64,000 nucleotides of DNA from Ectocarpus siliculosus (lineage: Eukaryota; Sar; Phaeophyceae; Ectocarpales; Ectocarpaceae), in contig FN649749.1 in assembly GCA_000310025.1 (NCBI GenBank), forward strand, positions 3,256,693 to 3,320,692. Reading direction: 5' to 3'. The translations under genes and the position numbers were made by a program. Numbering within the stretch: the first letter of the stretch is position 1; each line of letters starts with the position of its first letter. Below are positions 32,596 through 37,680 of the stretch, piece by piece. Below the pieces are notes generated by a model, which was not told where the DNA came from, searched no databases, and saw only the letters and a list, made by a program, of their open reading frames with translations.

Positions 32596-35500
32596 ATGGT
32601 GAAAATGGGGGTGCTCGCCGACACTCTGAAGACCATCTCCAACGCGGAGAAGCGCGGGAAGAGGCAGGTGCTGATCCGGCCATGCTCCAAGGTTGTGGTC
32701 AAGTTCCTGCAGGTTATGCAGAAGAACGGTGAGACACAACCGGCACGAACACGATCGGAGTACCAACCAACTGAACGCAGAGAGATGTGTCGCGGACTCG
32801 TTGTCCCAAAAATGTTTGTTCTCGTCCGCTCATCAGAACAAAATGGCAGTAGCAACAGACAGCGCAGAGATGTCGCGAAACGCTCTGCGTGGCGGGCAGT
32901 ATGTGCTCTCGTTCGCGTGTCAAGACAACGTTGCAGCAAGAACACCAACACACACCGCGCGGAGATGCGAATCGCGGAAGACGCCTTCGTTGCAACATGT
33001 GTTCGTCCTCTTGTCAACACAATATATCGCAATATCAATTACCACAAACAGCGTGGAGACGTTACGAAAGACTCCCCCGTGTCGAGGAAAATATCCCCTC
33101 TCTCTTGCCTAGTTCCACGGGAAGACAGCGACAAAACCAACGGATGTTTGTTGGTGATGACTGAAGGTCTGGCGTTTGTGCACAAGAGTTTTTTTATGGT
33201 TCGTTGGCCTCGTTATGCAGAGAACGGCGGGTCGCGGACACCAGGAGTTGTCTTCCTCGCGCGTTGCATTCTGCTGCAACAACGTTCACGTGCCATCCGA
33301 CCACGGCAGCCATTTTCTCAGAAGACGCACCATTCTGCTGCAAAAAAGTTCATGTGCCATCCAACCACGGCAGCCATTTTCTCAGAAAACGCACCAATCC
33401 CTCGCCACTCTATTTTGTACCAAGCCTTTAGGCGAAAATACGGCGCCAACACTCGAGTGTACTGAACGACACAGACAACGCCAACCATTCGAGTATTGAA
33501 TTCATTCCTGTCTGGTTTCAATCGATGGATACAAGTGCGGGCAAACGCACAAGTGTGCTATCGACTTTCAGGATCGATTGCTCCGCAACCAAGCGACAAG
33601 ATGGTGATACTTTCAAGGAAAGCTAGCTCTCGACAAGACGTGCCCCAAACTACCCTTTTTGGCTTCGGCAACCTGTTGGTTGTGGAGCAATCGATCCTCA
33701 AAATGGATCGCAAATTTTGGGGTCGCGCACACTTGTACGGTAACGCATCAAATTGGTTTTGCTGATCGATTGCTTAACGACCAAGAAACAAGAGGGTGCT
33801 ATCGAAATCCGACGGATACGTTCAAGGCAAGCTAGCTCTCGACTAGATGTGTCCAAAACCACCCTTTTGGGCTTTGGCAACCTGTGGGTTGCAGCAACGG
33901 AGTCTATGAAGTCGTACACCTGCATCCACACTTTGCTGGAAACGCGTCAAATAGGTTTTGGTCGCCATCGTAGACTCGTGATGTGCACAGCATCAAGTAC
34001 GGCGTGATGCCGGCATTACCTCCTCAGATTCCCAGCCTGTAGCTGTTGAAAGCTACCGGTGTTGACGCTAGCTCTCGGCCAGTGCTTCTTTCCTCCCGCC
34101 TGTCTGTGGCAGAGGTTAGCGGTGGCGAGCCCTGTTCACCATGCACTACACCACACAATCGCAAAATTCAAGACGCAGAGCAGCCGTGATTCCTTTAGTC
34201 GTGTCGACGGGATGTCTGTCTCCTTGAGGGACGGGCAGGCGTTTGGTTTACGAGGAAATTTCTCCGCGTTGGTCGGCCGCTGACCCCAAGTCAACAGCTG
34301 CTGCCTGCGTGAGTCCTAGCCCATAACGCGCTTACACGCCATCTATTCTGGTGGTAGATTTGTCTCTGTTCTGTGGCATACATTCGTGTATGCATCCAAC
34401 GGGGCCTTGCTGCGCTGGGCGTTTGGCCGTCGTGTCTATTGGTTTTAATGTTCGTCTTCGCTTGCATTCATCAATATTCTTGGTCGAGAAAGACATGCAA
34501 GCGGTCCTGTGGGCCCTTTCGACGCTCTGGGCATTGAACTGATGATGGATGTTTGGGGGCTGTGTCCGCGGACGAAGTGTTGATTTCTGGCCCAGCGGAC
34601 ATTTTATTTGTTCGCAATTCCGTCGTCCGCTTCAGGAGATGCAGACATGAAAGTATATGCACAGCTGATGTGGACCAAGGGTCCTATTAGAACAGGACAT
34701 CTAAATCGAAGGGTGTGGACCATACCCATATCCCCCCATTCGTATCATATCATATGTCGTGCATAAAGACCAACTTCCTCTCATGACTGCACACCTCAAC
34801 GCCTTGCTCACAGTAGTTTATGACGGTATTATTGTGGCATCGGTTATATGTAACGCATTGCTTGCGTTGTACCTGCCTTGAAATGTCGAAGAATCGTAAA
34901 ACCTTGCTTCTCAGACTCAACATCGTTGGGGACTGGACAATGGATGCTGCTCCCGCACCCAATCAAATGGTTTGCTGAACTTCCTCTTTTTTTTTTTCTT
35001 CGTTCCTTTTGTCTTGCCAGGCTACATCGGGGAGTTCGAGATCGTGGACGACCACCGCGCGGGGAAGATCGTTGTAGAGGTGAGAAGCTATGTACCACAC
35101 CAGTTTTTTTCCCAGCCTCAACCTGAAGATGCTACGCCAGCCTTGCCGAGGCTGTTGCTGCTGTTTCGGCAAGCAGTGGATGCGAGCCTCGCCGGGACTG
35201 TTAGTTTTGCCGCTCTTGAATCAAGGACCCTGGAAGTCGAGATTACTCGCGTGCTAGTATGCTCCCTGTTTACCGGCTTGTGTACTCCTCTGAAATTGGA
35301 GACTTTTGTTGATCTGCTGGCGGTGTGTGTGTTTTGCCCCAGCGGGTCGCACGTGCTGTTGTGCTGTGTCCATCAATTATCGATTGCGCGATATGTTTTG
35401 TGTTTTCCTTGCTGACCAGACGTGTCGTGATAGATGCCATGTCCTTCCGTGTTCTCGCGGCGAATAGCTCTGATAAATTCTCATCGGCTGATCGTGCGTG

Positions 35501-37680
35501 ATCTTTGACGGTATCTCCTGTTATTTCTGTCCGGCATTTGTTTTTGTAACGTATGTTTGTACAACGTTTGTGTTGTCAGCTGACCGGCCGTATCAACAAG
35601 TGCGGCGTCATCTCCCCCCGGTTCGATATGCCTCTCCAAGATGTCGAGAAGTGGGTAAACAACCTGCTTCCCGCACGTGGGGTGAGTGAGAGCGAGAGGA
35701 CGAGGGTCATTCTTCCTGTTTTTCTTAGCCGCTTGATTGAGTAACACACTCCTGGATGTATGGCAGTGGTGCCGGCTGTCGTAGGATCGTTTTCGCTGCT
35801 TGCAGAGAAGGGATAAGTGATGATGCTCCATAGAGATCTGACACCTCTTGTTTGAGGGTCAAAATGACCTCGTGAACGCAGCCTTACAATGAAACTGATA
35901 TCCCTTTGACACGCAGCCGAGTCGACTCATCCATACACTTTCACCCTCCTGAGGGAGTATACCCTGCAATTTGTAGGTGTAACGTATGACTCTCATCGCA
36001 GTTTGCGTTCTTGGATCCTTCGTTGGTATTTTTCCTCCCGAGAATGGAATCAAGTAGTTAGTTGTGTCCAAGTTTCTCCCTTGCAATATACGGTCAACTC
36101 TAGCCATTCCAGAGGTCATGTACAGATACATCGGCTTCCCACGTAGGCAGAAACCTGAGTTCTACAATCAATTCTTGCGTTGTTCAAGCGTAAACATGAA
36201 CGTTACAATATTCCGCGAAACCAGTTAAGTTCTGTTTGAAACCTGTTTATCAATTAAAGACAATAGCTGGGTTTTGGGGCGGAAGAAAAGTGGTGTGGGC
36301 TTGGGCGTAGGTGATGTCACACCTTGGACCGGTGTGGTTATCAATCGTCCTCGCCTATGGCTGGTGGTCCCTATTTCGGGTAATTGATGATGCTCCATAG
36401 AGATCTGACACCTCTTGTTTGAGGGTCAAAACGACCTCATGAACGCAGCCTTACCATGAAACTGATATCCGAGATGGAACCACAAGCTCTCTTTTTCACT
36501 CGACTTTTGTTGTTGACCTTTTTTTTTTTTGCTCGAATCTCCTGATCAAGACTTCTAAAGTACGCCCTTCTGACTAAGGACACATTGTCCTGAATTTGGC
36601 GTAGTGATGTGTTGGCTGAGAAAAGCTTATGTCGAGTTGTGGATAGCTGATGATGCTCCATAGAGATCTGACACCTCTTGTTTGAGGGTCAAAATGACCT
36701 CATGAACGCAGCCTTACAATGAAACTGATATCCACAACACCTTGTTATTTGAATTACACATAGTAGGTCTGGAACCTGACTGTGCGGGCGGCCATGTATG
36801 GCGCAGCCACGCAACCAGCATAGTTCCGAAAGACATTCGTGTGCAATGTTATTGTGTCTGTAACGTGATTAATGTAAAGTGGTGAGCTCCTGCAAAAGCA
36901 TCACCAATTGTTCGGTCGGAGTTTTTTTTTTTTCTGTGTTTTCTCGGACGGTTGAGATGGTCAGCCTTTCAGATACGCTAACTTCCGATAGCGGAACACC
37001 TCAAACGTCCGACAGCGGAACACCTCATCCTCGTTTGGTTCTTCTTGGCGTGTTTTTCTTACCTTCTTTGTCCGCCCCGTCTAGCTACGGTCCAGCGGGT
37101 GTATGGATGCGGACTAGGACACAGTTTCTTGGAAATTCCGGTGTAATGATGTTTTGTCGTGATAAAAAACGTGTATAGAGATCCTGCGGTATCGTGGATA
37201 AATGATGATGCTCCATAGAGATCTGACACCTCTTGTTTGAGGGTCAAAATGACCTCATGAACGCAGCCTTACAATTAAACTGATATCCACATCAAAGGTA
37301 CATGTTTGTCGCTCTATTTCTGATTTACAACGATGTCAAGATGTTTTTCGGTTACGTCGGAGTAGGCGCCAGCACTCACGCCAACCGATCGGACATTTCG
37401 TCTCACCCACCTTGTTTTCAGTAATAATGTTTTTCTGGTCTTGTTGGTGCAACCAGCAGTGAAATCGTTATTTTCCCCGTGGGTCACGTCAGCTTATATA
37501 CCTCAATTTTTAATTTTTATTCCTCTCCCGTTTTGACTTGTTTGGTCGTTTTTGTGTCCGTGCCGTTTCGAACGAAAACAGTTCGGACACATCGTCTTGA
37601 CGACCACGTTCGGCATCATGGACCACGAGGAGGCGCGCCGCAAGCACACCGGTGGCAAGATCCTCGGCTTCTTCTACTAA
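32596..37680 (+). CDS. RPS15A: 40S ribosomal protein S15a (uS8), four exons
   Basis: Exons 32596-32728, 35021-35079, 35580-35681 and 37582-37680 give 130 aa, the same length as human RPS15A. The protein starts [20 protein letters not shown], continues [11 protein letters not shown], then [20 protein letters not shown], then [16 protein letters not shown], and ends [22 protein letters not shown]. uS8 binds the central domain of 18S rRNA. The start was chosen at 32596 because MVKMGVLAD matches the universal N-terminus; an in-frame ATG six bases upstream precedes the CAG of a likely 3' splice site. All splice sites are GT-AG with matching phases. Intron 3 (35682-37581) carries four C/D snoRNA-like copies in the same orientation, so the pre-mRNA probably doubles as a snoRNA host transcript. 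Confidence 0.97.
32757..33110. repeat. Diverged minisatellite, about 88-bp unit, in RPS15A intron 1
   Basis: About four degenerate units, each with a GCAGAGA/GCGCGGAGATG-like core, then CTCGT..TGT and AACA-rich ends. Cores fall near 32780, 32868, 32958 and 33050. Reading through intron 1 from exon 1 gives a long open frame that is repetitive and not coding. Confidence 0.55.
33268..33395. repeat. 64-bp tandem duplication
   Basis: Units 33268-33331 and 33332-33395 share ATTCTGCTGCAA, GTGCCATCC and ACCACGGCAGCCATTTTCTC with about six differences. In RPS15A intron 1. Confidence 0.9.
33571..33960. repeat. About 200-bp tandem duplication in RPS15A intron 1
   Basis: Unit 1 from GATCGATTGCTCCGCAACCA and unit 2 from GATCGATTGCTTAACGACCA at 33766. 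Both continue with CAAGGMAAGCTAGCTCTCGAC and GGCTT(C/T)GGCAACCTGT. CGATTGCTCCGCAACCAA recurs at about 58350 in the EGF gene, so the unit belongs to a dispersed family. Confidence 0.75.
35808..35906 (+). ncRNA. C/D box snoRNA-like RNA, copy 1
   Basis: C box TGATGA at 35818-35823, D' box CTGA within AGATCTGACACC, D box CTGA at 35895-35898. Terminal stem AAGGGATA (35808-35815) pairs with TATCCCTT (35899-35906). In RPS15A intron 3, same strand as the host. Candidate guides lie before D' (GCTCCATAGAGAT) and before D (GCCTTACAATGAAA). The rRNA target is not identified. Confidence 0.82.
36375..36473 (+). ncRNA. C/D box snoRNA-like RNA, copy 2
   Basis: C box 36385-36390, D box 36462-36465. Terminal stem TTCGGGTA (36375-36382) with TATCCGAG (36466-36473), allowing G-U pairs. 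The body is near-identical to copy 1, with changes in AAAACGACC and in CCTTACCATG; the latter changes one base of the D guide. Confidence 0.8.
36636..36738 (+). ncRNA. C/D box snoRNA-like RNA, copy 3
   Basis: C box 36648-36653, D box 36725-36728. Terminal stem GTTGTGGATA (36636-36645) pairs perfectly over 10 bp with TATCCACAAC (36729-36738). Body identical to copy 1 apart from CTCATG for CTCGTG. Confidence 0.85.
37194..37290 (+). ncRNA. C/D box snoRNA-like RNA, copy 4
   Basis: C box 37203-37208, D box 37280-37283. Terminal stem GTGGATA (37194-37200) pairs with TATCCAC (37284-37290). One change next to the D box (AATTAAAC for AATGAAAC). It ends 291 bases before the last RPS15A exon. Confidence 0.82.

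Follow-up and report, generated by a model that had tools for sequence, protein, structure and literature searches.

A four-copy C/D snoRNA cluster in intron 3 of RPS15A in Ectocarpus siliculosus, with a predicted target in large-subunit rRNA

Introduction

What is encoded by four almost identical short units that follow one another within a single intron of a ribosomal-protein gene of the brown alga Ectocarpus siliculosus? The units lie in a 64,000-nucleotide stretch of contig FN649749.1 (positions 3,256,693 to 3,320,692 of the forward strand, assembly GCA_000310025.1), here called the window, whose own numbering is used throughout. From the sequence of this stretch, the original prediction had proposed a cluster of four C/D snoRNAs inside RPS15A, held together by covarying terminal stems and unlike the vertebrate arrangement of one snoRNA per intron. 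As a comparison with vertebrates this is fair, but introns with several snoRNAs are known in plants, Drosophila and Plasmodium (PMC2656528, PMC2780460). According to PMC2780460, an intronic snoRNA gene cluster was described first in rice and later in Drosophila. Rice clusters hold paralogous members, for example U15a-U15b (PMC5122169), ribosomal-protein genes of a sponge carry snoRNA duplicates in neighbouring introns (PMC3412847), and local duplication has been described for C/D snoRNAs (PMC11028025). For Ectocarpus itself, CDseeker and ACAseeker have been used to predict snoRNA loci, onto which small RNAs were then mapped (PMC4513859). The RPS15A-intron cluster may already be annotated among these loci. 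Among the titles listed on snoRNAs in Ectocarpus or brown algae (20 of 26) and in stramenopiles or oomycetes (10 of 50), none concerned such clusters, which does not prove that none is in print.

Results

The host gene and its third intron

As had been proposed, the host is RPS15A (uS8). Its spliced open reading frame of 130 aa, with the C-terminus GGKILGFFY, is carried on the plus strand by four coding exons (32596..32728, 35021..35079, 35580..35681 and, including the stop codon, 37582..37680), which are separated by GT-AG introns of 2292, 500 and 1900 nt. The protein, queried as a hand-joined RPS15A with one glycine more than the 130-aa frame, matched Pfam PF00410 (Ribosomal_S8) with 75.1 bits against a cut-off of 24, as well as uS8/S15a chains of solved ribosomes in the PDB (best E 2.4e-69). 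The position and orientation given for the cluster also held: 35682..37581 on the plus strand (GTGAGT...AAACAG) is exactly the third coding intron, and all bodies lie in the direction of the host.

Four near-identical bodies

This intron holds four C/D snoRNA bodies, each measuring 81 nt from C box TGATGA to D box CTGA and having the latter close to its 3′ end: copy 1 at 35818..35898, copy 2 at 36385..36465, copy 3 at 36648..36728 and copy 4 at 37203..37283, all on the plus strand. They are as alike as first described, with 3, 1, 2, 2, 3 and 1 mismatches in the six pairwise comparisons, confined to body positions 48, 55, 71 and 74. By contrast, the 100-nt flanks outside the stems show 14-32% ungapped identity among copies, so the likeness is limited to the snoRNA unit. 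TGATGA is present in all four copies and is preceded by G, T, C and A in copies 1-4, so that the R of RTGATGA is found in two and is absent from copies 2 and 3.

Both window strands were also scanned strictly, the requirements being an exact TGATGA, a CTGA placed so that the whole measured 49-140 nt, and a stem with 5 or more Watson-Crick pairs; the four sites on the plus strand were the only ones found, with none on the minus strand. When the 189 Mb assembly (492 contigs) was searched with the body, four matches were obtained, all in RPS15A intron 3; the guide with its D′ box (see below), allowing at most one mismatch, gave four forward matches, again all here, none in reverse and none in the backward control, the DNA repeat counts from such assembly searches being lower bounds. 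A search of viral_contigs for the guide gave no match. An initial genome-wide pattern, whose spacing of 16 did not fit the copies, gave 369 matches against 214 in its backward control and was not used.

Other repeats were seen in passing. Between copies 3 and 4, a 24-nt unit, AACTTCCGATAGCGGAACACCTCA, occurs twice in tandem with 92% identity (36980-37027). Among the matches listed for the initial genome pattern (about 100 of the 369), the exact 26-mer TGATGATGCGGTCGATAATGGCCTGA occurred at least eight times on at least six contigs and TGATGAGTGACCGATAACTACACTGA at least three times on at least two; both are probably dispersed repeats.

Terminal stems

Each body is closed by a stem whose pairing begins right after CTGA and two bases ahead of TGATGA. 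Contiguous pairing extends over 9 pairs in copy 1 (35807-35815 / 35899-35907), 12 in copy 2 (36371-36382 / 36466-36477), 10 in copy 3 (36636-36645 / 36729-36738) and 7 in copy 4 (37194-37200 / 37284-37290). The stem of copy 2, which includes three G-U pairs, is thus longer than had been proposed. Matching each 5′ flank to its own 3′ flank scored 38, which no other of the 24 permutations equalled; exchanging copies 3 and 4, which share much of their stem sequence, came second with 36 and so costs only 2 pairs. When sequence was drawn at random from the intron 20000 times, 3 draws attained the outer pairing observed.

Aligned over 10 pairs in the four sequences, 90% of the 40 cells pair. Five of the ten pairs are changed on both sides, a count reached by 12 of 500 shuffles, while four are invariant and one varies on one side only. 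The covariation score of 0.567 compares with a shuffled mean of 0.211, was reached in 1 of 500 shuffles, and dropped to 0.317 or less when the partner was shifted by 1-3 columns. Since the inner five pairs (GGATA/TATCC) are almost constant and little informative, the covariation is located in the outer pairs; compensatory change, as originally proposed for the stems, is borne out there and not in the inner part. Folded alone, copies 1-4 gave z-scores of -2.19, -2.25, -2.11 and -1.36.

Placement of the D′ box and the guide

The internal CTGA had been taken as the D′ box. A TTGA standing 14 nt past this CTGA makes the more likely D′ box, and the CTGA then falls inside a guide complementary to large-subunit (LSU) rRNA at the snR48/SnoR1 site. 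In copy 1 (35837..35855) the guide TCTGACACCTCT (35837-35848) is followed by a spacer and TTGA (35852-35855); copy 2 carries the same guide letters at 36404..36422 (TTGA at 36419-36422), and the corresponding elements lie at 36667..36685 in copy 3 (TTGA at 36682-36685) and 37222..37240 in copy 4 (TTGA at 37237-37240), all on the plus strand. A putative C′ box, RTGAACG, would follow as GTGAACG at 35872-35878 in copy 1 and as ATGAACG at 36439-36445, 36702-36708 and 37257-37263 in copies 2-4; GGGTCAAAATGACC, which separates it from TTGA, could form a short hairpin. Both boxes are off consensus, TTGA standing in place of CTGA and RTGAACG differing from RTGATGA, and this counts against the assignment. 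TGATGA, guide, D′ and D boxes are invariant across all four copies. The stretch upstream of D has one substitution each in copies 2 and 4, and this, with none in the guide, fits a single working guide.

The predicted LSU rRNA target

The assembly yielded one fragment of the alga's own LSU rRNA, found both by DNA probe and by exact pattern; in Rfam it matched eukaryotic LSU with 250.1 and 222.1 bits. Its LSU similarity stops abruptly within the gene, and a complete nuclear rDNA unit was not found in the assembly by either search. The fragment includes GCTAGAGGTGTCAGAAAAGTTACCACAGGGATAACTGGC. The guide upstream of TTGA pairs perfectly over 12 bases with AGAGGTGTCAGA of this fragment, the pairing beginning at position 4 upstream of TTGA and the fifth base lying opposite the first G of AGAGG. 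In yeast 25S numbering, A2820 is the counterpart of E. coli A2451. The first G of AGAGG, which stands in the D+5 register, precedes the A2820-equivalent by 29 nt, the distance that fits position 2791, and the methyl group is predicted on the equivalent of yeast 25S G2791.

Shuffled guides matched the alga's own LSU fragment as well as the real one in 5 of 3000 cases. On a foreign set of seven eukaryotic rRNA pieces (LSU and SSU of L016; SSU, 5.8S and two LSU parts of L018; the LSU end of L017), 66 of 3000 did so, and the score is only moderately rare there. The top three matches (L017, the own fragment and L016) are one homologous LSU site, with one flanking pair missing in L016; the LSU of L018 differs by one base at the target (AGAAGTGTCAGA) and is outside the top eight. 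L016, L017 and L018 are bacterial MAG records, and since they carry eukaryotic rRNA genes the contigs concerned are probably contaminants. The alga's assembly also gave two 5.8S-like matches; blastn of the surrounding 9.9 kb against L016/L018 revealed neither SSU nor LSU similarity, and viral_contigs gave no match to eukaryotic LSU.

The comparison with the alga's own snRNAs covered U6, U2 (two loci) and U5 (three loci); here the guide also found 10 pairs in U6, scoring 24 against 30 for LSU without a shuffle control. The source of this match, GAGAGGTGT, is included in the 3′ part of U6 (L019). As a separate observation, each of the five listed U5 matches has a U2 match at a distance of about 0.4-1.2 kb (C479, C47, C3, C9; L020-L027), so that U2 and U5 are linked repeatedly.

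Were the internal CTGA the D′ box after all, GCTCCATAGAGAT and GCCTTACAATGAAA would guide two other sites. CTGA is the textbook D/D′ box, and the first of these guides has an 11-pair match in the foreign LSU L016 and a 10-pair match, out of register, in the alga's own U2. However, the match in L016 is at chance level, equalled on the foreign set by 902 of 3000 shuffles (2088 of 3000 on the own LSU fragment), and the upstream-of-D guide is poorer than most shuffles (equalled by 2945 of 3000 on the foreign set, the figure for the own fragment being 2556 of 3000). On the seven foreign pieces and the own LSU fragment, the originally proposed guides thus did no better than shuffles, which leaves room for a lineage-specific target elsewhere in the alga's rRNA. 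Their best scores against U2, U5 and U6, taken without shuffles, were 22 and 19, both in U2 and both below the 30 of the LSU match. Moreover, it is the upstream-of-D stretch that is substituted in copies 2 and 4, and the related Rfam models, described next, do not retain the stretch ahead of CUGACACCUCUU. We consider this assignment very unlikely.

Comparison with Rfam

Scanned with cmscan at gathering scores, the whole window gave no Rfam match, and we therefore speak of an snR48-like counterpart and not of a member of an Rfam family. The best matches on the copies lay below threshold: TCTGACACCTCTTGT, if TTGA is read as the D′ box, is similar to the models snoR1 (RF00345), which scored 23.7, 21.8 and 20.0 bits on copies 4, 1 and 2 in a scan of the intron, and sn2903 (RF01194), which scored 19.5 bits on copy 3, against gathering scores of 49 and 50 bits, respectively. 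The six matches listed for the intron included two unrelated ones on the minus strand, to ceN65 (17.2 bits) and 6A (17.0 bits). Both snoR1 and sn2903 belong to clan CL00066, their alignments to the copies concur at the C box region and UCUGACACCUCUU, and they retain CUGACACCUCUU. Ranked by E-value over the whole window, a single copy appeared (E 1.4), under two miRNA matches (0.13 and 1).

Discussion

In this study, we confirmed a cluster of four C/D snoRNA copies in intron 3 of RPS15A. A body conserved against diverged flanks, a covarying stem, a complement in LSU rRNA and the resemblance to CL00066 models all point to an ordinary rRNA methylation guide of the snR48/SnoR1 kind, present in four gene copies, and we hold this reading to be very probably correct.

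Among the RNAs that may be counterparts of the copies is human U60 (SNORD60). In one table row of PMC2780460 U60 stands together with yeast snR48 and Neurospora CD8, the last with a D′ guide of 13 pairs. Arabidopsis SnoR1, an apparent orthologue of snR48, has been assigned to G2792 (yeast 2791); service of its D′ guide at G2794 (yeast 2793) is given as a prediction without mutant validation, and the discussion of that paper has snR45 where its results have snR48 (PMC8053127). In yeast, snR48 is taken as the guide for both Gm2791 and Gm2793 (PMC5199042). The family snR48 (RF00471, clan CL00066) shares a row with AtsnoR1, under the numbering of that source, in a table listing the C/D snoRNA targets that the last eukaryotic common ancestor is inferred to have had (PMC3511168). 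The equivalent G's appear in two table rows of PMC11542601, the second with Gm4370, which we take to be a human position. With yeast snR48 and plant SnoR1 (RF00471, RF00345), the RPS15A-intron copies share the box C/D type and, by prediction, a target made of two LSU rRNA G's one base apart, and with the snoR1 model also the guide (U)CUGACACCUCUU. They differ in scoring under the Rfam gathering thresholds, in a remaining body that is not confidently alignable and in lying fourfold within one protein-gene intron.

The copies would be transcribed and spliced together with the RPS15A mRNA, and each would be cut or trimmed to an RNA of about 85-100 nt that is held shut by the copy's own stem and assembles into a C/D snoRNP. 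The guide upstream of TTGA would pair with AGAGGTGTCAGA, near the peptidyl-transferase region, and fibrillarin would methylate the 2′-OH of the G2791-equivalent and possibly also of G2793, as the pairing register and the snR48/SnoR1 counterparts suggest. Having four copies may mainly raise dosage, or the copies may stay alike by selection together with gene conversion.

Compatible with such a guide is that one or two copies do the work, while the remainder are drifting duplicates kept alike by gene conversion. The changes upstream of D in copies 2 and 4, the missing R before TGATGA in copies 2 and 3, and the shortest stem and weakest fold z-score (-1.36) of copy 4 would agree with this. Yet boxes and guide are the same in all four amid unrelated flanks, from which we conclude that the duplication is not recent, and each stem has been kept by compensatory changes, so we regard this as possible but the less probable state of the cluster. 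Further from an ordinary guide would be the formation of stable sno-lncRNAs, spanning copies 1-4 or subsets of them, as a regular by-product of RPS15A. Introns with two snoRNAs can yield long RNAs with snoRNA ends (PMC11028025), and exonucleases acting on the debranched intron free only the outermost snoRNA ends; unless an enzyme cuts the copies apart such products could arise, although we think this unlikely.

Other explanations dispense with the rRNA altogether. The four units could act in cis on the splicing or expression of RPS15A, a thought invited by their confinement to one intron of a ribosomal-protein gene and by cis roles described for intronic snoRNAs (PMC11028025); such a role leaves the rRNA complementarity in the right register unexplained, and we judge it highly improbable. 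Several near-identical copies could also belong to a dispersed or mobile repeat with chance C/D-like motifs. Its chance is next to nil, as the copies were found in one intron and one orientation only and their homology ends at the snoRNA stem; with no copy beyond the four found in the assembly, we rejected it.

As to arrangement, several snoRNAs in one protein-gene intron are also seen in rice, Drosophila and the RPS27a intron of Plasmodium (PMC2656528, PMC2780460, PMC5122169) and, to judge from the title of a report, in Chlamydomonas. In the parts of these sources on which we draw, no intron is said to hold a single snoRNA four times over, and the RPS27a intron of Plasmodium has two snoRNAs. 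The RNA type is well known; all that is slightly out of the ordinary is to find four copies within one intron. The mammalian SNORD115 and SNORD116 arrays carry one snoRNA per repeated intron. They resemble the present cluster in the local amplification of one C/D snoRNA, but are large arrays of orphan snoRNAs in a noncoding host, as described in PMC11028025, whereas here a predicted rRNA guide occurs four times in a protein-gene intron.

In conclusion, the cluster leaves the understanding of snoRNA function unchanged, but likely adds an snR48/SnoR1-type guide from another eukaryotic genome, with a predicted methylation site near the peptidyl-transferase centre. With its four copies, diverged flanks and covarying stems, it is a small natural experiment in the ways by which the ends of duplicated intronic snoRNAs are maintained.
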